58,812 bases of DNA from Bacillota bacterium (GTDB taxonomy: Bacteria; Bacillota; JADQBR01), in NCBI GenBank assembly GCA_016278515.1, contig JADQBR010000040.1:1-58812 (forward strand), read 5' to 3'. Position numbers and translations under genes: made by a program. Of the stretch, positions 2,335 through 15,511 are shown piece after piece; positions within the stretch are counted from its first letter, which is position 1; each line of letters opens with the position of its first letter. Below the pieces are notes generated by a model. That model ran no database searches. It was not told where the DNA came from and worked only from the letters and a program-made list of their open reading frames with translations.

Positions 2335-2436
2335 CATATTTATGGATACCTGGTAGAATAAGGTTATACTGTAATTAAATATATTGGGCAGACAGTGGAT
2401 GTCATGGGGAAAACACTGGGTGGAGGCGTAAATTTA

Positions 2437-2838
2437 GTGAATCTAAAAGAAACAAGGTGGCTGCAAAGATTTGAGAATTTCCAAAAGGCTTATTTACAGC
2501 TTAAAAGTGCTGTGGAGCGAGTCAATGAGCTAAGTGATTTGGAAAAAGAGGGCTTAATACATAGATTTGAATATACCTTTGAGCTGGCATGGAAGACCTT
2601 AAAAGACTACTTAGAAGCACAAAACGTCCCGGCTGCTTTTCCGAGAGAGGTAATTAAGACAGCATTTCACTATGAACTGATTAAAGATGGAGAAATATGG
2701 ATGGATATGCTGGAAAAAAGAAATCTTATGGCACATACTTATGATCAAGAAAAATTTGATAATGCCGTTCGACTTATTCATTTAAATTATTTCGATGCAA
2801 TTTCACAGGTTTATTCTACCTTAGGGGTAAAAAAATGA
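2437..2838 (+). CDS. HEPN-domain protein (HI0074 family), toxin of a HEPN/MNT module
   Basis: The 133-residue protein matches nucleotidyltransferase substrate-binding proteins of the HI0074 family, which are HEPN proteins: helical, with FEYTFELAWKTLKDYL and the RNase-like motif R-N-x(3)-H in KRNLMAHTYD. In HEPN/MNT type VII toxin-antitoxin systems this protein is the RNase toxin, and the partner MNT enzyme neutralises it by AMP addition near the RxxxxH motif. GTG 2437 is preferred because GGAGG at 2422-2426 sits at proper distance. An upstream in-frame GTG (2395) would add 14 residues without such a site. The stop overlaps the ATG of the partner gene. Confidence 0.88.
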   Translation: MNLKETRWLQRFENFQKAYLQLKSAVERVNELSDLEKEGLIHRFEYTFELAWKTLKDYLEAQNVPAAFPREVIKTAFHYELIKDGEIWMDMLEKRNLMAHTYDQEKFDNAVRLIHLNYFDAISQVYSTLGVKK

Positions 2839-3140
2839 ATTTTGGACTTTCGAATAAAACTTTAACTTATATTATTGACAACATAAAAGAGTTTAGCGAA
2901 ATTGAGGGCGCAAAAATATATGGCAGTAGGGCTTTAGGAAATTATAAGCGGGGATCTGATATTGACTTGGTATTACTCGGCGCGGAAGTTAATGAACAAA
3001 TAGTTTTAGAACTAAGTAAGAGGTTTAATCAGGAATTGCCGCTTCCCTATCATTTTGATGTTATTGCTTACGGAAGTATTAAAAATGAAGCGCTGGTTGA
3101 GCATATTGATCAGTATGGTATCATCATTTTTTCGCAGTGA
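2835..3140 (+). CDS. MNT-family nucleotidyltransferase (antitoxin of HEPN/MNT module)
   Basis: This 101-residue minimal nucleotidyltransferase carries the family core GSRALGNYKRGSDIDLVL (about residues 31-48), where the two Asp of DID bind metal, and a third acidic position in HFDVIAY (about 75). Family members AMPylate the cognate HEPN toxin. Its ATG overlaps the HEPN stop (ATGA), so the two are translated together. It is complete in length for the family. Confidence 0.9.
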   Translation: MNFGLSNKTLTYIIDNIKEFSEIEGAKIYGSRALGNYKRGSDIDLVLLGAEVNEQIVLELSKRFNQELPLPYHFDVIAYGSIKNEALVEHIDQYGIIIFSQ

Positions 3141-3266: not shown

Positions 3267-3302
3267 TTGACAAATTTTGCGCTGTTTGATATTATGATTT
3301 TG
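3267..3302 (+). promoter_or_regulatory. sigma-A-like promoter of the purine operon
   Basis: TTGACA at 3267-3272 and TATTAT at 3290-3295 are separated by 17 bases. A start near 3302 would place the transcript 5' end just ahead of the guanine aptamer (3315), as expected for a leader-controlled operon. Confidence 0.7.
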
Positions 3303-3314
3303 ACAAACTAACGT

Positions 3315-3384
3315 CGCTGTATAATTGTGAGGATACGGCTCACAAGTACCTACCGGGTAACCGTAAATTACCCTGACTACAGCG
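3315..3384 (+). promoter_or_regulatory. purine riboswitch aptamer, guanine-specific (first half of tandem)
   Basis: P1 is CGCTGTA (3315-3321) paired with TACAGCG (3378-3384). P2 is GTGAG/CTCAC with loop GATACGG; P3 is GGGTAA/TTACCC with loop CCGTAAA. The two loops carry the kissing-loop pattern of purine riboswitches, and the junction TATAAT and GACTAC elements are present. The ligand-pairing position (C at 3377, in GACTAC) is C, which specifies guanine; adenine aptamers have T here. Guanine binding is expected to favour transcription termination of the pur operon. Confidence 0.92.
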
Positions 3385-3476
3385 GAAAGTGCACCTAGAG
3401 TTCCGATGCGTCAGCATGCCTGGATCAAGTGGTGCAGGTGCCTATTTGTGCACTACACCGTAGGGATAAAAGCCCA
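3385..3476 (+). promoter_or_regulatory. ykkC subtype 2 riboswitch aptamer, probably PRPP-sensing (second half of tandem)
   Basis: Directly after the guanine aptamer comes a ykkC-type fold. An outer GTGCAC helix encloses CCTAGAGTTCCG, a small ATGC-GTCA-GCAT hairpin and CCTGGATCAAG. The strongly conserved GGGATAAAAGCCC 3' element (3463-3475) follows. ykkC subtype 2 RNAs sense ppGpp or PRPP, and the tandem with a guanine aptamer before purine genes is the published arrangement of PRPP riboswitches. PRPP binding would hold the GCCC strand in the aptamer, so the terminator at 3473-3527 cannot form and transcription continues. Confidence 0.85.
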
Positions 3477-3527
3477 GACGGGTAGGTTTCTGCTAAGCAG
3501 TCATTCTACCCGTCCGGGTTTTTTTGG
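3473..3527 (+). terminator. riboswitch-controlled terminator before purE
   Basis: The stem CCC-ACGGGTAG (3473-3487) pairs with CTACCCGT-GGG and is followed by a run of seven or more T. Its 5' strand shares CCC (3473-3475) with the 3' helix of the PRPP aptamer, so aptamer and terminator exclude each other. This gives a transcriptional on-switch for PRPP, overridden by the guanine aptamer only when PRPP is low. Confidence 0.88.
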
Positions 3528-3750
3528 TTTTATTCAATAATCGAATGGGGTTACCCCTGTGAAGAAAATATTGAAAAAGAGGTGGAATTAATCGCCGGAT
3601 TTAGCAGGATAAGCAGTAATTTACGGGATAAACTAAATTCAAAGGAAGTGAGTAGGATTGTGACAAGGGTGCAAAAGGTGCGAGGTTCGAACTAATCCGT
3701 TTTCGAGTTTGGCACGTTTTACATTCAAAAATACTAAGGAGGCGTTATAT

Positions 3751-4275
3751 GTGGCTAATCCAAGAGTTGGCATTGTCATGGGAAGTGATTCTGATCTACC
3801 TGTTATGAAGGATACTACAGAAGTATTGGAACAATTAGGTATTGAATATGAAGTGGTGATATCCTCTGCTCACAGAGTACCGCAAAAGACCGCTCGTTAT
3901 GCAAGTAGTGCAGAAGAACGTGGTTTAGAGGTGATTATCGCTGCGGCGGGTGGAGCTGCACATCTGGCCGGTGTTATAGCTGCCGAAACGGTTTTGCCTG
4001 TAATTGGTGTTCCTATCAAGACTTCAACCTTAGGAGGATTGGATTCTCTATATTCTATTGTGCAAATGCCCCGTGGTATTCCGGTAGCGACTATGGCTAT
4101 TAATGGTGCAAAGAATGCTGGGATTTTTGCTGCCCAAATTGTTGGAATAAACGATGCTGCGGTAAGGAAAAGGGTTAAGCAGTTTAAGCTGGAAATGGCA
4201 AAAGGTGTAGAGCAGAAAGATGAAAAATTGCAGGAGTTAGGTGTTAAGGCGTATCTAGCGGAGATGAAAAAGTAA
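3751..4275 (+). CDS. purE: PurE, N5-carboxyaminoimidazole ribonucleotide mutase
   Basis: PurE converts N5-CAIR to CAIR in de novo purine synthesis in the cytosol. The P-loop-like GSDSDLPVM, the class I signature SAHRVP, AAGGAAHLAGVIAA and GLDSLYSIVQMP are present, and the length (174 residues) is normal. GTG 3751 is chosen as start because AAGGAGG (3736-3742) lies 8 bases upstream; the frame is open further up (3709), but without a ribosome site. It is the first gene of the pur operon, about 220 bases after the riboswitch terminator. The usual partner purK is absent from the operon although the enzyme has class I features. Confidence 0.96.
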   Translation: MANPRVGIVMGSDSDLPVMKDTTEVLEQLGIEYEVVISSAHRVPQKTARYASSAEERGLEVIIAAAGGAAHLAGVIAAETVLPVIGVPIKTSTLGGLDSLYSIVQMPRGIPVATMAINGAKNAGIFAAQIVGINDAAVRKRVKQFKLEMAKGVEQKDEKLQELGVKAYLAEMKK

Positions 4276-4398: not shown

Positions 4399-5694
4399 AT
4401 GATAGAGCGATATAATTTACCTGAGATGAAAGAAATTTGGTCCGAGGAAAATAAGTTTCAGAAATGGCTGTTGATTGAGGTTTATGCTTGCGAGGCTTGG
4501 GCAGAATTAGGAAAAATACCTCAAGATGCTTTGAAGGAAATTCAGAGCAAGGCTGGCTTTGACATCGAGAGGATTGAAGAAATTGAAAATGTCACGAGAC
4601 ATGATGTACTGGCCTTTACTACTGCGGTAGCTGAAAAAGTTGGCGATGCATCCAAGTATATTCACATGGGAATGACTTCTTCAGATGTACTAGATACGGC
4701 TTTGGCCGTAATGATGAAAGAAGCCGCAGAAAAGATTTTGGAGAAATTGGGGCTGCTCCGTCAAGTATTGGTCCGGAGAGCGAAGGAGGAAAAATATACT
4801 TTGATGATTGGCCGTTCTCACGGCATTCATGCTGAGCCCGTAACCTTTGGCTTGAAGATGGCGCTCTGGGTGGCTGAAGTAGATAGGAACATTGAACGCT
4901 TAAAGGATGCCATAAAAACCATTAGCGTTGGTCAGGTATCGGGAGCGGTAGGAACATTTGCTAATGTTGATCCCAAGGTGGAGGAGTACGTTTGCAGAAA
5001 ACTGGGTTTGGAAATTGCACCAGTTTCGACCCAAATTATTCAAAGGGACAGGCATGCTCACTACCTTAATACGTTGGCCATTATTGGCAGTTCTTTAGAC
5101 AAGTTTGCCACTGAGGTAAGAAACCTGCAGCGCACTGATATTTTGGAAGTGGAAGAGCAGTTTGCCAAAGGTCAAAAGGGTTCATCAGCTATGCCTCATA
5201 AAAAAAATCCTATCACCGCGGAAAGAGTGGCGGGCCTATCACGACTGCTGCGGGGAAATGCAATAGTTGCTCTGGAAAACGTTGCTTTGTGGCACGAACG
5301 TGATATCACCCACTCATCAGTGGAAAGAGTCATTATTCCGGATAGTACCTCTGCACTTTATTATATGCTTCATAAATTCATAGATGTTATGGACAATTTG
5401 GTTATACATCCGGAAAATATGAAAGATAATCTCAATAAAACCTTGGGGTTGGTTTTTTCACAACGGGTAATGTTAACTTTGGTGGAAAAAGGCGTATTAA
5501 GAGAAACGGCCTATCATTGGGTGCAGCGTAATGCTATGAAAGCATGGGAAGATAAGGTGGAGTTTATTAAACTGGTAAAACAAGATGAAGATATTGCTCA
5601 AAAATTGTCCCAGCATGAGATAGAAGAGTTATTTAATTATGATTACCATACCAAAAATGTAGACTATATCTTTGATAGGGCGGGAATCAAATAG
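4399..5694 (+). CDS. purB: PurB, adenylosuccinate lyase
   Basis: The lyase splits fumarate from SAICAR in the IMP pathway and from adenylosuccinate in AMP synthesis. The protein has 431 residues, the usual size. It carries the fumarase/aspartase-superfamily signature SSAMPHKKNP (about residue 262) with the catalytic Ser loop, the TSSDVLDTA substrate motif and GRSHGIHAEP with the catalytic His. A GGAGG site precedes the ATG. It lies 123 bases after purE, the largest gap within the operon, and no terminator is seen in that gap. Confidence 0.97.
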   Translation: MIERYNLPEMKEIWSEENKFQKWLLIEVYACEAWAELGKIPQDALKEIQSKAGFDIERIEEIENVTRHDVLAFTTAVAEKVGDASKYIHMGMTSSDVLDTALAVMMKEAAEKILEKLGLLRQVLVRRAKEEKYTLMIGRSHGIHAEPVTFGLKMALWVAEVDRNIERLKDAIKTISVGQVSGAVGTFANVDPKVEEYVCRKLGLEIAPVSTQIIQRDRHAHYLNTLAIIGSSLDKFATEVRNLQRTDILEVEEQFAKGQKGSSAMPHKKNPITAERVAGLSRLLRGNAIVALENVALWHERDITHSSVERVIIPDSTSALYYMLHKFIDVMDNLVIHPENMKDNLNKTLGLVFSQRVMLTLVEKGVLRETAYHWVQRNAMKAWEDKVEFIKLVKQDEDIAQKLSQHEIEELFNYDYHTKNVDYIFDRAGIK

Positions 5695-5764
5695 AGTAAC
5701 AAACGAATTATTGGAAGTTTGGCAAGATATGTGAATTAATCAAAAATTTTAGGAGGAGATAATG

Positions 5765-6481
5765 ATGGTTGAAAAAAAACAGATGTTATATGAAGGTAAG
5801 GCTAAAAGGGTTTATCAGACAGATAACCCGGATTATTATTGGGTGGAATATAAGGATGATGCTACTGCCTTTGACGGTAAGAAAAAGGGAACTATTAAAG
5901 AAAAGGGATATTACAATAATCAAATTTCTGCCATAATGTTTGATTTCTTAAAAGATAAAGGCATCGACAGTCATTATATTGAGTTAAAAGGCGATCGCGA
6001 AATGTTGGTTAAGGCATTGGAGATTATTCCTGTAGAGGTTATTGCCAGAAATATTGCGGCAGGCAGTCTGGCAAAACGGCTGGGTATGGAGGAAGGTACG
6101 GAGCTTTCAAAACCGGTACTGGAGTTTTGCTATAAGTCAGACGAATTAGGGGATCCAATGATTAATGATTACCATATTGATGCGCTTGGGTTGGCAACGG
6201 TGGAGCAAATGAAAGAAATTAAGAAACAAGCTTGGGAGATTAACAAGTTGATGGTTGACCATTTCAAGGATTTAGGCATTATTTTGGTCGATTTTAAGCT
6301 GGAGTTTGGTCTGCACCATGATAAAGTACTATTAGGAGATGAAATTTCACCGGACACTTGCCGTTTCTGGGATGCGGAAACTAAAGAAAAGTTGGATAAA
6401 GACCGTTTTCGCAGGGATCTTGGCAAGGTGGAGGATGCATATCAAGAAATTTTAAACCGATTGAAGGGAGATGTGAGCTAG
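5765..6481 (+). CDS. purC: PurC, SAICAR synthetase
   Basis: PurC joins CAIR with aspartate using ATP. Family features are the N-terminal [11 protein letters not shown] nucleotide-binding strand, [17 protein letters not shown] and [11 protein letters not shown], and the length is about 238 residues. Two ATG codons stand in tandem (5762 and 5765); AGGAGG (5751-5756) is at the better 8-base spacing from the second. The last base of its TAG is the first base of the purS GTG, so the two are coupled. Confidence 0.96.
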
Positions 6482-6735
6482 TGTACCAAGCCAAGATAAA
6501 GGTGACTTTAAAGAAAGGGGTTTTGGACCCTCAAGGCAGCGCAGTACAGCGTTCTTTACGCGCCCTGGATTATGGTGAGGTAACATCGGTACGCATCGGA
6601 AAATATATGGAAGTGAATCTTGAAGCCTCTAATAAGGAAACTGCCGAGGAGCAGGTTAAGGAAATGTGCCAACGGCTTTTGGCCAACCCGGTTATTGAGG
6701 ACTATACCTATAACTTAGTGGAGGTAAAATCATGA
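6481..6735 (+). CDS. purS: PurS, FGAM synthetase small subunit
   Basis: An 84-residue subunit bridging PurQ (ammonia from glutamine) and PurL (synthetase) in the three-part FGAM synthase typical of Firmicutes. The pattern [20 protein letters not shown] and the end of the protein ([12 protein letters not shown]) are diagnostic. It starts with GTG overlapping the purC stop by one base, and its stop overlaps the purQ ATG (ATGA), so purC-S-Q are tightly coupled. Confidence 0.95.
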
Positions 6736-7439
6736 AGTTCGGCGTAGTTGTTTTCCCCGGATCTAATTGCGATACTGATGTAAAATACGCGATTGAAACT
6801 GTGTTGAAACAACCGGTGGACTACTTATGGCATCAGGAAGGTGATATTGCCGGTTACGATTGTCTTGTTCTTCCGGGAGGATTTTCCTTTGGTGATTATC
6901 TGAGAATTGGTGCTATTGCCCGCTTCTCGCCTATCATGAAAAGTGTTGAGCAATTTGCTGGGAACGGGGGTTTGGTTGTCGGCATTTGTAATGGTTTTCA
7001 GATTTTATTGGAAGCCGGGCTGCTGCCTGGTGCCATGAAAATGAACGATAGTTTGCAATTTAGGTGTCAGGATGCTTACTTAAAAGTAGAGAATAATGAG
7101 ACAGCCTTTACCAATAAAATGATGCCCGGTAATATTTTGCGTGTTCCCGTGGCCCATGGAGAAGGTAACTACTATGCCGATGAGTCAATGGTAGCTGAAT
7201 TGGAAAGAAACGGACAGATTGTTTTTCGTTACAGCAGCAGTAAAGGTGCTGTTGTTCCTGAAGCTAATCCTAATGGCTCCACGGCTAATATTGCAGGTGT
7301 AATAAATAAAGAGGGTAATGTTTTAGGCATGATGCCCCACCCGGAACGTTGTGCGGAAACTCTATTAGGCGGTGAGGACGGAAAACTTATTTTTGAATCT
7401 ATTATCGATTGGCATCAGGGAGGTGGTAAGCTTGGCTAA
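6732..7439 (+). CDS. purQ: PurQ, FGAM synthetase glutaminase subunit
   Basis: A class I glutamine amidotransferase of 235 residues that supplies ammonia to PurL. It shows FPGSNCD at the N-terminus, the nucleophile elbow [18 protein letters not shown] with the catalytic Cys, and the His-x-Glu pair in [13 protein letters not shown] precedes the ATG, which overlaps purS. The end overlaps the TTG start of purL by 8 bases. Confidence 0.96.
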
Positions 7440-9627
7440 ACTATTTCAAGAAATGGGGCTATTAGCCTCAGAATATGAAAAGATAGTAAAGCTGATGGGT
7501 CGCGAGCCTAACTATACCGAATTAAGCATGTTCTCCGTTATGTGGTCCGAACACTGCAGTTATAAACATTCTCGGCCTGTATTGGGAACCTTTCCTACTA
7601 CCGGCCCTCAAGTACTCCAAGGCCCGGGGGAGAATGCCGGCGTAGTGGATATTGGCGATAACCAAGCGGTTGCTTTTAAGATAGAGAGCCATAATCATCC
7701 TTCTGCCATTGAACCTTTTCAAGGGGCTGCTACCGGTGTCGGGGGTATCATCAGAGATGTATTTACCATGGGTGCACGCCCTATTGCTCTATTAAATTCT
7801 TTGCGGTTTGGTTCATTAGACAATGATAGGGTCAAATATCTTTTTGATGGTGTTGTGTCCGGGATCAGTTGGTACGGAAATTGTATCGGGATACCCACTG
7901 TAGCCGGTGAAGTTTACTTCAATGACAGTTATGCGGGTAATCCGCTGGTTAATGCTATGTGTGTTGGTTTGCTTAATCATGACGAATTGAAAAAAGGCGT
8001 GGCCAGTGGCATAGGAAATCCGGTCATGGTTATCGGTGCTCGTACAGGCAGGGATGGTATTCATGGTGCTACTTTCGCGTCTGAAGAACTGAGTGATAAA
8101 TCCGAAGAGAAACGTCCTTCTGTCCAGGTCGGTGACCCATTTATGGAAAAGCTGCTCCTAGAAGCCTGTTTGGAATTAATACGTTCGGGAGCAGTAATAG
8201 GCATGCAGGATATGGGAGCTGCTGGACTAATAAGCTCTTCTTGTGAAATGGCTACTCGCGGTGGCAGTGGGATGGTCATGGACGTAGCAGAGGTCCCGAG
8301 AAGGGAAGAAGGAATGGAGCCTTATGAAGTACTGTTGTCAGAATCCCAAGAACGGATGCTGGTAATTCCCCGAAAAGGTAAAGAACAAATAGTCGAAGAG
8401 ATTTTTAATAAGTGGGGCTTGGAGGCTGCTGTTATCGGGCATGTTACCGATGATGGAATGCTTACTATTATGGAAGGCGATAAGATTGCCGCACAAGTTC
8501 CTGCCACTGCATTAACCGAGGAATGTCCGGTTTACCGGCCTGAGGCAAAGGAACCGGAGTATTTAAGCCGTGTTAATGCATTTTCGCCAGAAGATTTACC
8601 TTTGCCCAAGGACTGTAGCGAAGTATTACTATCTCTTCTGGCATCACCGTCTATTGCCAGTAAGGAATGGGTTTATCGGCAATATGATTATATGGTGCGT
8701 ACAAATACGGTTATCGGCCCCGGGTCAGACGCTGCCATACTACGAGTAAAGGGTACTAACAAAGGGATAGCAGTCACCACTGATTGTAATTCGCTTTACT
8801 GCTATCTTGATCCGTTTACAGGAGGGGCTATTGCTGTAGCAGAGGCTGCTCGAAATCTGGTCTGCAGCGGTGCAAAGCCACTGGCTGTAACGGACTGTCT
8901 TAATTTTGGCAATCCGGAAAAACCGGAGATTTACTGGCAGTTTAAAGAAGCGGTAGCCGGGATGAGCGAAGCATGTAAAAGATTGTCTACACCGGTGGTC
9001 AGCGGCAACGTGAGCTTTTATAATGAGACTAACGGCGGGTCTGTTTACCCTACGCCTGTAGTAGGTATGGTTGGCTTAGTTGAGGACTTGAATCATCGCT
9101 GTAGCATGGATTTTAAGGAGGAAGGGCATCTGATGTTCCTCTTGGGGCAGACAAAGTCGGAACTGGGCGGAAGTCAATATTTATCAGTGATTCACGGGAA
9201 GGACATGGGTAAGACCCCGTCGTTGGATTTAGATACTGAAGCGGCAGTGCAAGAATGCTGCTTGGAAGCAATAAAAAAAGGCATAGTTGTTTCGGCCCAT
9301 GATTGTGCCGAGGGCGGTTTGGCAGTTGCGGCGGCAGAGAGTGCAATCAGTGGGGGCATAGGCTGCAGCGTAAATATCAACACTGAGCTGGCTTCACACG
9401 AACTACTCTTTTCAGAAAGTCAATCTCGAATAATTATTACCGTTGCGCCCAAGGATGTTGAGAAACTAATGACAACAGCCAATAAATTTGGCGTAATTTG
9501 CGAAGAAATAGGTACAGTTGGTGGCAGTACCATAGAAATGACTGTTAGCGAAAAACTGCAAATAAGTGTATCCCTGGAAATAGCGGCCAGCACTTGGCGG
9601 GAGGCGATCGCATGCAAGTTGACTTAG
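7432..9627 (+). CDS. purL: PurL, FGAM synthetase large subunit
   Basis: The ATP-dependent synthetase subunit (small, PurSQ-dependent type; 731 residues) converts FGAR to FGAM. The N-terminus [16 protein letters not shown] and the glycine-rich [12 protein letters not shown] match the family, with two AIRS-type repeat halves. TTG 7432 is taken as start because GGGAGG (7418-7423) is 8 bases upstream; the frame extends further into purQ without a site. It overlaps purQ by 8 bases and purF by 16. Confidence 0.96.
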
Positions 9628-11036
9628 ATAAAGTAAAGGATGAATGCGGGGTTTTTGGTATCTATGCTCCCAACAAGGACGTTGCACGGTTAACCTATTT
9701 TGGTCTATATGCGCTCCAGCATCGGGGTCAGGAAAGTGCCGGAATAGCAACCAGCAATCAAAACGATATACAACTCCATAAAGATATGGGATTAGTAACG
9801 GAAGTGTTTTCCGAAGATGTCTTAGCTAAGCTAAAAGGCAGCATCGCCATTGGTCATGTTAGATACTCTACCACGGGGTCTAGTCTATTGACTAATGCTC
9901 AGCCATTGTCCTTTCGTTACATGCGCGGTATGGTGGCTTTGGCCCACAATGGAAACCTCACTAATGCCAATGAATTGAGAGACAGCTTGGGGGCAACAGG
10001 TTCCGTATTTCAATCCACGACTGACAGTGAGGTTATCGTAAACCTAATTGCCAGGTATGGACAGAATCCAATAGAGGATGCGTTAATGAAATGTATGATA
10101 GATATCAAAGGAGCCTATTCGCTTTTAGTTATGACTGAAGATAAATTAATCGGGGTCAGAGATCCGTATGGGGTGAGGCCATTATGTATCGGTAAGTTGG
10201 ACGGAGGCTATATTATTGCTTCGGAAAGCTGTGCTTTGGATACAGTTGGAGCGGAGTTCGTAAGAGATATTGAACCTGGCGAAATTGTGGTTATTGATAA
10301 TAAGGGGCTTAGATCCATCAAAAATTTGTGCAGCTCTCGCCAGGCGTTATGTATTTTTGAGTTTGTCTATTTGGCAAGGCCCGATAGTAATTTAGACGGC
10401 ATAAATGTTGTGCAGACCCGCAGGCAATTTGGCCGACAATTAGCAAAGGAATGCCCAATCGATGCAGACATTGTTATTCCCGTCCCTGATTCCGGTATTG
10501 CTGCTGCTGTCGGTTATGCTGAGGAAACAGGAATACCTTTTGAAGAGGGATTAATGAAAAACCGCTATGTTGGACGCACCTTTATCCAACCTTCTCAAGA
10601 AATGCGTGATTTGTCTGTGCGGCTGAAACTTAATCCTATTAAAAGTGTTCTAGAGGGTAAGCGAGTTATTATGGTGGATGACTCGATTGTGCGGGGTACC
10701 ACTAGCAAAAAAATTGTGGAGATGTTGCGTAAGGCAGGCGTAAAAGAAGTGCACATGTTAGTCAGTTCTCCGCCTATTTTACACCCCTGTTACTATGGTA
10801 TTGACACGTCTGCCAGGGCCGAATTAATAGCGGCGCAAAATGATCTGGAAGCGATACGTCAGCATATTTCTGCAGACAGTTTGCATTATCTGAGTCTGGA
10901 AGGAATGTTAGCCTCCATGGGAAAACAGCCTGATTGTTTTTGTAATGCTTGTTTCAGTGGAAAATACCCTATCGAAATTCCGGATTTTAAGCATATGGGG
11001 AAATATATCATGGAAACGGAGGTAAAACATGGTTAA
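9612..11036 (+). CDS. purF: PurF, amidophosphoribosyltransferase
   Basis: PurF makes phosphoribosylamine from PRPP and glutamine, the committed step. From ATG 9612 an 11-residue propeptide precedes Cys12 (CGVFGIY), which becomes the N-terminal nucleophile after cleavage, as in the Bacillus enzyme. The PRPP loop [14 protein letters not shown] is present. The C-terminal cysteines (HPCYYGI and CFCNAC) fit the [4Fe-4S] class. The 474-residue length is normal. GGGAG lies at correct spacing inside the end of purL. The final 8 bases overlap purM. Confidence 0.96.
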
Positions 11037-12033
11037 GGGAATGTCTTATAAGGATGCAGGAGTTAATATCAATGAAGGTAGCCGGGCTGTATCCTTAATG
11101 AAAGATGCTGTCAGCAGTACATGGCGCCCCGAAGTTTTGACGGAATTGGGGGGCTTTGGCGGCCTGTTTCAATTGGATGTCAACAAATATCGGCAGCCCG
11201 TATTAGTTTCAGGAACAGACGGAGTGGGGACGAAATTAAAGATTGCCTTTGCTATGGATAAACATGATACAATCGGTATTGATGCGGTGGCAATGTGCGT
11301 AAATGACATTTTGGTTCAAGGTGCAGAACCATTATTTTTTTTAGATTATGTTGCACTAGGCAAGCTAATTCCCGAGCAGGTTGCAGCTGTGGTGAAAGGT
11401 ATTGCATTCGGATGTAAACAGGCCGGCTGCGCTTTAATTGGAGGAGAGACTGCGGAAATGCCTGGTTTCTACGCCAAGGGCGAGTATGATATTGCAGGTT
11501 TTGCCGTAGGTGTGGTAGATAAAGAAAAGATTATTGATGGGCAGGGCATAAAATCCGGAGATGTCATAATTGGTTTACCCAGTTCTGGATTACATAGTAA
11601 CGGTTATTCCTTAGCTAGAAAAGTTTTGTTAGGCGAAGATTACGAAAACTTAAAAGTATATGATGAGAAATTAGGTATTACATTAGGGGAAGAGATGCTT
11701 AAACCTACAAAGATCTACGTCCAAGAGGTACAACCGCTGATCGAGAAACAGTCTATTAAGGGGATGGCTCATATTACGGGGGGCGGCCTAGTAGAAAATG
11801 TTCCGCGGGTACTGCCAAACAATTTGAAGGCAGATTTCATTTGGGGGTCTTGGCCTGTGCCGCCGATTTTTCAGTTAATACAATCTCAAGGGAATGTTCC
11901 CGAAAATGAAATGTATCGGACTTTTAATATGGGCATAGGATTTGTTCTGATTGTGCCCCAAGAAGAGGTTGAGGCAATAATCAGTCAATGTAGTGAAGAC
12001 GCATACGTCATCGGGAAAGTAACCAATAAATAG
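11029..12033 (+). CDS. purM: PurM, AIR synthetase
   Basis: PurM closes FGAM to AIR with ATP. The AIRS fold markers are [45 protein letters not shown] and [16 protein letters not shown]. The 334 residues are slightly short of the common ~345, the difference being at the C-terminus. ATG 11029 is 6 bases past a GGAGG within purF. The stop is followed by a 33-base gap before purN. Confidence 0.96.
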
Positions 12034-12066
12034 TCTTCATCCCTAACGATATTGGGAGGTATCTAT

Positions 12067-12699
12067 ATGCGTTTAGTTGTACTGGCTTCAGGCAGGGGTT
12101 CCAACCTGGAGGCAATTATGGAAACAGTTAAAATTGGTAAACTAAGGGCAGAGATTGTTTCGGTAGTAAGCGATAATGCTAACGCAAAAGCTTTAGAAAA
12201 AGCGCAATCCCACGGGATACCAACAAAAGTCCTTTCTATAAAAAATTTCCAGTCTAGACAGGATTATGATGATGCTTTGGCAAAAGCTATTGAAGATGCA
12301 GGTGTGGATTATGTGGTGCTTGCAGGTTTCATGCGTGTATTAGGTAATGGCTTTGTTCGGCGTTTCAGAAACCGGATCATAAATATTCACCCGTCATTAT
12401 TACCTGCTTTTCCTGGAGTAAATGCACAGGCCCAAGCTTTAGACTACGGCGTTAAAGTATCGGGATGCACCGTACATTTTGTTGATGAAGGGATGGATAC
12501 GGGCCCTGTCATTGCCCAAGCTGCTGTTTCGGTATATGATAACGACACTGCCGACAGTCTTACCCAAAGAATATTAGTCCAGGAACATAAGCTGCTCCCT
12601 AACGTGCTACAGATGTTAAGTGAAGAGCGGGTAGAGGTTTCTAACCGCAAAGTATCTATTAAAAGGAATAATCTCAATAGAGAGGACGGTGGGTTATGA
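12067..12699 (+). CDS. purN: PurN, GAR transformylase (10-formyl-THF dependent)
   Basis: PurN formylates GAR. The N-terminal [12 protein letters not shown], the catalytic [12 protein letters not shown] (Asn and His) and the Asp-bearing [17 protein letters not shown] are all present in a 210-residue protein. ATG 12067 is 8 bases after GGGAGG (12053-12058). An upstream in-frame TTG (12052) overlaps that site and is unlikely. The stop overlaps the purH ATG. Confidence 0.96.
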
Positions 12700-14228
12700 A
12701 TAAAAGAGCTTTAATAAGTGTTTCTGACAAAAACGGGATTGAAGATTTTGCCAAAGGATTGGTTGTCCTAGGGTACGAGATAGTTTCTACCGGCGGCACT
12801 GCAAAAGCGCTTGAAATCGTCGGAGTGCCGGTTACACCTGTCAGTGACATTACGGGTTTTCCAGAAATATTAGGTGGTCGAGTTAAAACTCTGCACCCAA
12901 AGGTACACGGGGGAATTCTGGCTAAGCGTAACCAGGAACATTTGGGGCAGTTGGGTCAGCACGATATTGTCCCAATAGACATAGTGGCGGTTAATTTATA
13001 TCCTTTCAAGGAAACAATTAGAAAGGCCAATGTTACCTTGGAAGAAGCAATAGAAAATATTGATATTGGTGGTCCGACTATGGTGAGAGCTGCGGCAAAA
13101 AATTACGAAAGTGTGCTAGTTGTAGTTAATCCGGAAAACTATAACGAAGTATTAAAACACTTGGAAGCCGATACAGCGGACAGACAGTATCGCCTGCGTT
13201 TGGCATCGGAGGCTTTTGCACATACGGCCGATTACGATTGTGCCATTAGCGGTTATTTAAATAAAGAGCAAAGTAATAATGGATTTCCACTTAATTACGT
13301 TGTTGTCGGTCAGAAGATGCAGCAGCTGCGCTACGGTGAAAACCCGCACCAAAAGGCTGCATTTTATCGTAAAGACGGTAGTAATCACGCCTGCGTGGCA
13401 AACGCGGAACAGCTTCAGGGGAAAGAGCTTTCATATAACAATATTGTAGATATAGAAGCTGCTCTAGAATTGGTACGTGAATTTCCAGGCACTGCTGCGG
13501 TGGTAATTAAGCATACTAATCCTTGTGGAGTTTCTCAGACCGGAAGTTTGGTAGAAGCTTATAAAGCCGCTTACAATGCAGATTCGATTTCTGCATTTGG
13601 TGGAATTGTTGGGTTGAATAGGAAAGTAGATGCTAAAACGGCAGAGGCCATGGCTGCCACTTTTTTAGAAGCGGTGATTGCTCCGGACTATGGCAAAGAA
13701 GCTTTAAAAATACTAGCAGAAAAGCCCAATTTGCGGGTATTGGCGGTGGGAGACCTGAGCAGGCAGAATGCAAATAGACAAATTAAAACTGTCAATGGCG
13801 GTTTTTTAGTTCAAGAAACTGATTACGCTCAAGCTTCTGCAGCAGAATTAGAAGTGGTGACTAAAGCACAGCCGACGAAAAAGGAATTGGAGGAGCTGCT
13901 TTTTGCCTGGAAGGTAGTTAAACATATCAAATCTAATGCCATCGCTATAACCAAAAACAGAACTACTCTTGGCGTTGGTGCAGGACAGATGAACCGGGTA
14001 GGTGCAGCTAATATAGCTATTAGACAAGCCGGTGATAGGACACAAGGTGCTGCCCTGGCCTCGGATGCTTTCTTCCCGTTTAAAGATACGGTGGCACTTG
14101 CTGCCAAATCGGGAATTACTGCGATTATACAACCCGGTGGTTCGAAAAGGGACGAAGAATCTATCGAAGAGGCTGATAAACATGGGATTGTTATGGTCTT
14201 TACCGGCATACGACATTTCAAACACTAG
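12696..14228 (+). CDS. purH: PurH, AICAR transformylase / IMP cyclohydrolase
   Basis: This bifunctional enzyme does the last two steps to IMP. The N-terminal MGS-like cyclohydrolase domain ([34 protein letters not shown]) is followed by the transformylase domain with [22 protein letters not shown] and SNAIAITKN. The length of 510 residues is normal. It overlaps purN by four bases and is followed by purD after 11 bases. Confidence 0.97.
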
Positions 14229-14239
14229 GAGGTGTTCTT

Positions 14240-15511
14240 ATGAAAATGCTCATAATTGGCGGGGGCGGCCGAGAACATGCTATAGCCTGGAAAATCGCTC
14301 AGAGCCCTAAAGTAGAAAAAATATTTTGTGCACCGGGAAACCCGGGAATTGCGGACTATGCACAGTGTTTAAATATAGATGTCAATGATATTACCAGTCT
14401 ACTGACATTTGCTTATGAGGAACAAATAGACTTAACTATCGTCGGACCCGAGGCGCCTTTAGTTGCAGGTATTGTAGACGTATTCGAAGATCACGATTTG
14501 CGGATTTTTGGTCCCAGTAAGGTTGCGGCTCAGTTAGAAGGGTCCAAGCAATTTGCTAAGGAGATAATGGAGAAGTATGACATACCTACTGCTCGTTATG
14601 CGTCATTTAATGAGGCCAAGGCCGCCAAAGACTATGTTAGAAAGCATGGTGTCCCATGCGTGATTAAGGCTGACGGGTTGGCCGCCGGTAAAGGTGTTGT
14701 AGTTGCGTTCACCGAACAAGATGCGTTATCCGCTATAGTTACCATCATGGAGGATAAGGCCTATGGTGAGGCCGGTTTGCAGGTGGTAATAGAGGAATTT
14801 CTTGAAGGAGAAGAGGTTAGTATTTTGGCATTTACTGACGGCAAAACCATTATGCCCATGGTTTCTTCTCAAGACCATAAACGTATTTTTGAAGGTGATG
14901 AAGGTCCTAATACAGGGGGGATGGGGGCATATTCACCAGCACCGGTTTATACCTCCGAGATTAAGAAAATAACTGAAGAACGGGTATTAGCGCCAATTAC
15001 CAGGTGGATGAAGGAAGAGAAAATCAGCTATCACGGTATTATCTATGCCGGACTAATGATAACAAAAAGCGGACCTAAGGTATTGGAATTTAACTGTAGA
15101 TTTGGTGACCCGGAGGCTCAACCAGTACTAATGCGCCTAGAGAGTGATTTAGTTGATATTATGTTGGCAGTCACTGAAGGCCGATTATCAGACCAAGAAA
15201 TTAGCTGGTCGGATGATGCCAGCGTCTGTGTTGTTTTGGCGTCGGGAGGTTATCCTGGGGGCTATGAAAAGGGAAAGATAATAGAGGGTTTAGATAAAGT
15301 AGATGAGGCAGTTGTTTTCCACGCGGGAACCAGAGAGGTTGACGGTAAGGTAGCCACCGGCGGCGGTCGTGTTTTGGGGGTAACAGCGAAAGGAAGCAGT
15401 ATCCATGAAGCCATAAATAAAGTATATCCGGAGGTAGCAAAAATCTCTTTTGACGGTATGCAGTATCGTAAGGATATTGGACAGAAGGCACTAAAAAGGA
15501 CTAGTAAATAG
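14240..15511 (+). CDS. purD: PurD, GAR synthetase
   Basis: PurD ligates phosphoribosylamine and glycine using ATP-grasp chemistry. It shows MLIIGGGGREHAIAWK at the N-terminus, TIVGPEAPL, VIKADGLAAGKGV, and EFNCRFGDPEAQ with metal-binding acidic residues, in 423 residues. AGGAGG precedes the ATG. It is the last gene of the operon, followed by a weak hairpin at 15528-15557. Confidence 0.97.
   Translation: MKMLIIGGGGREHAIAWKIAQSPKVEKIFCAPGNPGIADYAQCLNIDVNDITSLLTFAYEEQIDLTIVGPEAPLVAGIVDVFEDHDLRIFGPSKVAAQLEGSKQFAKEIMEKYDIPTARYASFNEAKAAKDYVRKHGVPCVIKADGLAAGKGVVVAFTEQDALSAIVTIMEDKAYGEAGLQVVIEEFLEGEEVSILAFTDGKTIMPMVSSQDHKRIFEGDEGPNTGGMGAYSPAPVYTSEIKKITEERVLAPITRWMKEEKISYHGIIYAGLMITKSGPKVLEFNCRFGDPEAQPVLMRLESDLVDIMLAVTEGRLSDQEISWSDDASVCVVLASGGYPGGYEKGKIIEGLDKVDEAVVFHAGTREVDGKVATGGGRVLGVTAKGSSIHEAINKVYPEVAKISFDGMQYRKDIGQKALKRTSK

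Follow-up and report, generated by a model that had tools for sequence, protein, structure and literature searches.

A probable tandem guanine–PRPP riboswitch ahead of a Bacillota purine operon, with comparative support for a strand shared between its aptamers

Known guanine–PRPP tandems and the purine operon of the window

Tandem riboswitches in which a guanine aptamer precedes a PRPP aptamer are already known, with 127 examples in the survey of Sherlock 2018 (PMC5912903) and 192 by 2022 (PMC9481103). The codA tandem of Bacillus megaterium comes near to IMPLY behaviour, being off at high guanine unless PRPP is also high, and in this RNA the 5′ end of the PRPP aptamer is cleaved more with guanine and less with PRPP, the mechanism having been left open (PMC5912903). 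In the same year, the guanine P1 and PRPP P0 helices were predicted by Knappenberger 2018 to be mutually exclusive (PMC6031431), and as of 2022 the exact structural rearrangements were still considered unestablished (PMC9481103). A literature search, with subscription papers and preprints outside its scope, returned no post-2018 paper testing the P1/P0 exclusion. In the literature surveyed, the device is the only natural RNA IMPLY gate reported.

The window analysed here is a stretch of 58,812 nucleotides from a Bacillota bacterium (contig JADQBR010000040.1). As in the Sherlock tandems (PMC5912903), a guanine aptamer immediately precedes a ykkC aptamer of subtype 2b, with a shared overlapping terminator and purine genes downstream (Table 1). 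The original prediction of a guanine–PRPP tandem with a single terminator before purine genes is borne out by the Rfam matches, the class markers, the predicted terminator and the identity of the genes. The RNA is very likely a tandem riboswitch controlling purE to purD via one shared transcription terminator, with ligand binding and the regulatory outcome predicted at this locus. The device type is thus a known and experimentally validated one and for the host organism would mean ordinary purine regulation; what is added here is the P0 extension, the covariation of the shared strand and an internal ppGpp-type control.

Table 1. Features of the riboswitch and the downstream operon in the window.
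Feature	Position	Strand	Basis
Sigma-A-type promoter TTGACA-17-TATTAT, extended -10 (putative)	3267-3295	+	Consensus 11/12, TG before -10
Guanine aptamer	3314-3385	+	P1 3314-3321/3378-3385, P2, P3, C74-equivalent C3377; Rfam Purine match
Shared strand B, AGCGGAAA	3381-3388	+	3381-3385 in guanine P1, 3381-3388 in PRPP P0 and extension; covariation, energies
PRPP-type ykkC (subtype 2b) aptamer	3385-3490	+	Covariance match, marker residues (PMC6031431)
Strand C, UUUCUGCU, P0 3′ strand and extension (proposed antiterminator strand)	3487-3494	+	Energies, covariation
Intrinsic terminator (predicted)	3468-3526	+	18-bp stem 3468-3523, U-tract 3519-3525 (T7)
purE	3751-4275	+	GTG start, AGGAGG upstream; TIGR01162
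purB	4399-5694	+	Curated model
purC	5762-6481	+	Curated model
purS	6481-6735	+	Curated model
purQ	6732-7439	+	Curated model
purL (putative start)	7414-9627	+	Curated model
purF (putative start)	9594-11036	+	Curated model
purM	11029-12033	+	Curated model
purN	12052-12699	+	Curated model
purH	12696-14228	+	Curated model
purD	14240-15511	+	GARS N, A and C domains

The putative promoter sits just upstream of the guanine aptamer, and the hairpin at 3468–3523 is the only predicted terminator, a strong one with seven T after the stem. A consensus terminator scanner found nothing at this hairpin, probably because its 3–8 nt loop limit is shorter than the actual loop. The predicted stem sequesters the P3 3′ strand together with G3477 and A3484–G3486 and so buries the PRPP ligand-contact bases, in agreement with the earlier claim of one shared terminator overlapping the 3′ helix of the PRPP aptamer. 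The genes that follow are arranged as purE-B-C-S-Q-L-F-M-N-H-D, and since all eleven are identified by curated models, the anticipated 11-gene purine operon headed by purE is confirmed from the GTG at 3751 to the end of purD at 15511. Together they make up the entire route from PRPP to IMP, with purB additionally serving AMP synthesis. The intergenic gaps are short or negative save those between purE and purB (123 nt) and between purB and purC (67 nt), and a haemolysin-III-like gene begins 132 nt past purD; from spacing and order, the eleven pur genes presumably reside on one transcript. Just upstream of the promoter, positions 2395–3140 encode a nucleotidyltransferase-substrate-binding protein and a nucleotidyltransferase, resembling a HEPN/MNT toxin-antitoxin pair. 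Two CRISPR-DR2-type repeats, 67 nt apart and enclosing one spacer, are found on the minus strand at 912–1008, and no longer array was found within the window beyond these two repeats.

Class assignment of the two aptamers

In a window-wide scan, positions 3297–3399 matched the Rfam Purine family (RF00167) with 76.0 bits (E 8.8e-12), the gathering score being 37. Alignment to the published guanine-contact bases (PMC9295807) places C3377 at the position of C74 and also recovers the equivalents of U22 and U51, which upholds the earlier description of a complete guanine aptamer with C3377 as the specificity base. By class the element is a guanine aptamer, and it would be expected to bind guanine here.

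The second aptamer is matched at 3384–3482 by the Guanidine-I model (RF00442) with 54.6 bits (E 5.3e-9), below the gathering score of 63, and no PRPP-specific Rfam 15 family was reported for this region, so that a gathering-level Rfam scan alone misses it. Such a score is to be expected of a related ykkC subtype that is not a guanidine aptamer. According to the published markers, guanidine aptamers have an A at position 49, where subtypes 2a (ppGpp) and 2b (PRPP) both have a pyrimidine; both subtypes also possess extra conserved ends, which form the P0 helix in the PRPP structure, and a conserved G96 paired with C75 is present in 2b and absent from 2a (PMC6031431). In the window, position 49 corresponds to U3430 in the alignment to the Guanidine-I model, which argues against the guanidine class, position 96 corresponds to G3477 paired with C3456, which argues against the ppGpp class, and the P0 helix is present as GAAA 3385–3388 and UUUC 3487–3490. 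The core fold is the same as that of the Guanidine-I riboswitch, which however lacks a P0 helix, and a guanidine aptamer was rejected on account of U3430 and the sub-cut-off score. The closest described counterpart is the Thermoanaerobacter mathranii PRPP aptamer (PMC6031431), with which the window RNA shares P0, the C75–G96 pair, the contacts A5/G6 (A3388 and G3389) and G104/G105 (G3485 and G3486), and the predicted P1/P0 exclusion.

The ykkC fold spans 3384–3494 when the P0 extension is included. It follows the guanine aptamer as originally proposed, but does not end at GGGATAAAAGCCC, taking in also the conserved AGACGGGTAGG and, beyond it, the P0 3′ strand TTTC (3487–3490) and the extension TGCT (3491–3494). 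In an alignment of 18 tandem sequences, 95.7% of the cells in the PRPP-aptamer helices are paired; pairs changed on both sides number 15 versus 8.3 in shuffles, and the cells with such changes 61 versus 17.7. At columns 17/62, the G-C of the other aligned sequences is replaced in the window by a compensatory A-U. By the published markers the second aptamer is of the PRPP subtype 2b, as had been predicted, and these markers favour neither the ppGpp class nor a lack of any ykkC class; PRPP would accordingly be the presumed ligand, with expression turned on upon its binding.

Two doubts about these identities deserve consideration. The second aptamer could sense ppGpp, which would make the RNA a guanine–ppGpp device: the ppGpp riboswitch (2a) has the same fold, the same pyrimidine at position 49 and the same conserved ends, a single G96A change swaps the specificity (PMC6031431), and a PRPP-trained model also detects the ppGpp-like sibling in this genome, with 78.8 bits. 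Subtype 2a, however, lacks the conserved G96 and is followed by amino-acid genes, whereas the window has G3477 paired with C3456 as well as a de novo purine operon and a guanine-aptamer tandem, both hallmarks of 2b. The sibling, L133 (C112:24382-24502, minus strand), is the only other subtype-2 ykkC RNA of the genome; it has no guanine aptamer in tandem and is followed by a class IV aminotransferase (IlvE-like) gene and then ilvD. Position 96, read from the ilv-linked sequences without a gap, is an A in L133 (AAAAG-ACUCA) and likewise in its counterparts L131 and L132 from two other genomes of the family, and this A96 against the G96 of the purine-operon RNA serves as an internal control for the PRPP assignment. 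Among 156 distinct loci, G is found at this position in 152 and A in the three ilv-type RNAs. A ppGpp-sensing element is thus extremely improbable here, and in this genome branched-chain amino acids appear to be served by a ppGpp-type copy and purines by a PRPP-type one, the two differing at the specificity-switching base. The other doubt is that the guanine aptamer may be degenerate, leaving the PRPP switch to work alone in the window, as its J2/3 departs from the consensus at two bases (AGUACCUACC where AGUUUCUACC is expected) and one extra U is present at 3374 near J3/1. This is very unlikely in view of the match score and the retained contact bases, and P1 has moreover been maintained through compensatory change, with the guanine aptamers of the family relatives retained at 77–79 bits.

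A strand shared between guanine P1 and PRPP P0

The P1 stems of the two aptamers are about 4 nt apart (3385/3386 to 3390), the typical spacing in published tandems being 5–7. The earlier description of the aptamers as having no gap is right in that they directly adjoin, but understates the matter, as bases 3381–3385 are common to both, and it overlooked the P0 helix and its extension, the part which joins the two. Strand B can pair with strand C, and its first five bases are also part of P1 with 3314–3321 (strand A). As isolated duplexes, P1 is estimated at about -10.4, the extended P0 at about -8.2 and the 4-bp P0 alone at about +0.3 kcal/mol. Forcing either P1 or the P0 extension gives near-equal energies when the 3′ end lies at 3498–3504 (-61.6 versus -61.2 and -64.4 versus -64.9, a difference of about 0.5 kcal/mol), and once the 3′ end reaches 3526 the terminator fold dominates (-82.5 versus -69.6); all these values are secondary-structure estimates that leave out ligands and tertiary contacts.

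In the proposed mechanism, strand B would pair alternately with strand A or with strand C. The A–B pairing would close the guanine aptamer, while B–C would represent the PRPP P0 helix lengthened by about four pairs and, by keeping the 3′ end of the PRPP aptamer away from the terminator, would act as an antiterminator. Guanine would stabilise A–B and withdraw strand B from P0, allowing the terminator to form (OFF), and PRPP would stabilise P0 and B–C, opening the guanine P1 and blocking the terminator (ON). With neither ligand, B–C could compete before the terminator is completed, resulting in an ON or leaky state. The IMPLY logic of the window RNA is presumed by analogy to the B. megaterium relative (PMC5912903).

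For a comparative evaluation, tandems were sampled in two ways. A DNA pattern in named genomes gave 120 matches, of which 39 with a full aptamer were kept, the window included; many matches, in Pseudomonas, archaea and others, were due to chance and were dropped for want of a full aptamer. A covariance model was also run over 398 genomes of the phylum and the loci aligned to it. After removal of identical loci, the comparison set comprised 79 PRPP-type (G96) loci that also had a guanine aptamer, and these reduce to 52 when only distinct switch strands are counted. Across these 52 tandems, the guanine P1 (A–B) has a native energy of -8.1 versus -5.65 kcal/mol when shuffled, a test favoured by the choice of strand A, for which the candidate that paired best at the expected distance was taken in each sequence. 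The B–C tests involve no per-sequence strand choice, and here P0 plus the extension gives -6.58 versus -5.48 and the extension alone -2.99 versus -2.0 kcal/mol. None of 5000 shuffles was as good in any of the three comparisons, in which shared ancestry is ignored and 41 of the 52 tandems are of one B type (GAG or GGG). With this class removed (n=11), the B–C extension remains at -2.98 versus -0.86 kcal/mol, again with 0/5000 shuffles as good.

The strands themselves differ between lineages. The commonest tandems have CUCGUA (A), UACGAG (B) and UUUC(A/G)CUC (C), another lineage has CACGUA, UACGUG and ACACG, and the window has UCGCUGUA, UACAGCGG and UUUCUGCU, respectively, with both helices retained. 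The corresponding A/B/C cores are CUCG/CGAG/CUC in most lineages, CGCUG/CAGCG/UGCU in the family of the window and CACG/CGUG/CACG in the other lineage. Unlike the common Sherlock-type GAG/CUC tandems, the shared strand of the window is AGC-type, as in its family and in a genome of another family (G004). The covariation of the guanine P1 3′ strand with both its P1 partner and the strand just 3′ of P0 provides comparative support for the shared-strand mechanism. In the T. mathranii model (PMC6031431) the exclusion comes from an mFold prediction of one sequence. The present test draws on covariation in many lineages, and the helix that excludes P1 extends beyond the 4-bp core of P0. The extension covaries also in a set without a recognised guanine aptamer, which also contained a small number of misclassified or ppGpp-type RNAs, and is hence not confined to tandems; this suggests that it might be an old antiterminator element onto which the guanine aptamer was built.

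A mere steric interference of the aptamers, with no common pairing strand, was offered as an option in the 2018 survey (PMC5912903), and the fixed and tight aptamer spacing would agree with it. Crowding, however, predicts no complementarity such as that of B and C, and the covariation seen across the 52 distinct tandems likewise speaks against it; crowding as the only cause is unlikely, although steric effects may add to the shared-strand pairing. Probably, then, one switch strand lies at the centre of the IMPLY gate, serving both as the 3′ strand of guanine P1 and as the 5′ strand of an extended PRPP P0 antiterminator. The three-strand exchange would be kept by pairing and not by sequence in many lineages of the Bacillota, and the P0 core, with an extension that is imperfect, is present in Ktedonobacterales (Chloroflexota) as well. 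Such a model would answer the question of mechanism that stood in 2022, and the window would represent a natural compensatory variant whose three strands have changed together from the common type. The comparative data support one directly testable arrangement of one strand, two partners and one terminator, for which the natural strand variants are at hand for compensatory tests.

Gene context in relatives and other riboswitches

In two other genomes of the family (G001 and G002) and in G004, the tandem is located about 1.6 kb upstream of purE. In G001 and G002 a purine-permease-like gene, identified from translations, lies between the two, directly after the tandem. This gene is absent from the corresponding place in the window, and a 70% identical counterpart lies elsewhere in the genome (C55:35859-37151), close to a xanthine-dehydrogenase-like cluster linked to a guanine riboswitch. 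Short stretches of the window leader at 3527–3750 resemble the relatives' sequence immediately ahead of the permease gene and that immediately ahead of purE, and such matches to both flanks are consistent with loss of the gene, which appears to have occurred between tandem and purE in the lineage of the window. Two single guanine-type aptamers, L002 (C55:40991-41092, minus strand, 75 bits) and L003 (C55:58986-59087, minus strand, 69 bits), are located upstream of molybdenum hydroxylase (xanthine-dehydrogenase-like) genes, the J3/1 of L002 having GCUAC in place of ACUAC.

In the 2018 survey, guanine–PRPP tandems were found in Firmicutes only (PMC5912903). Four Ktedonobacterales (Chloroflexota) assemblies also contain such tandems (L007, L056, L065 and L077), which have very long P2/P3 arms and are matched by the model with E 6.5e-13 to 5e-16, though they lie outside its training set. 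In all three that were checked (L007, L065 and L077), the next gene is a nucleobase permease.
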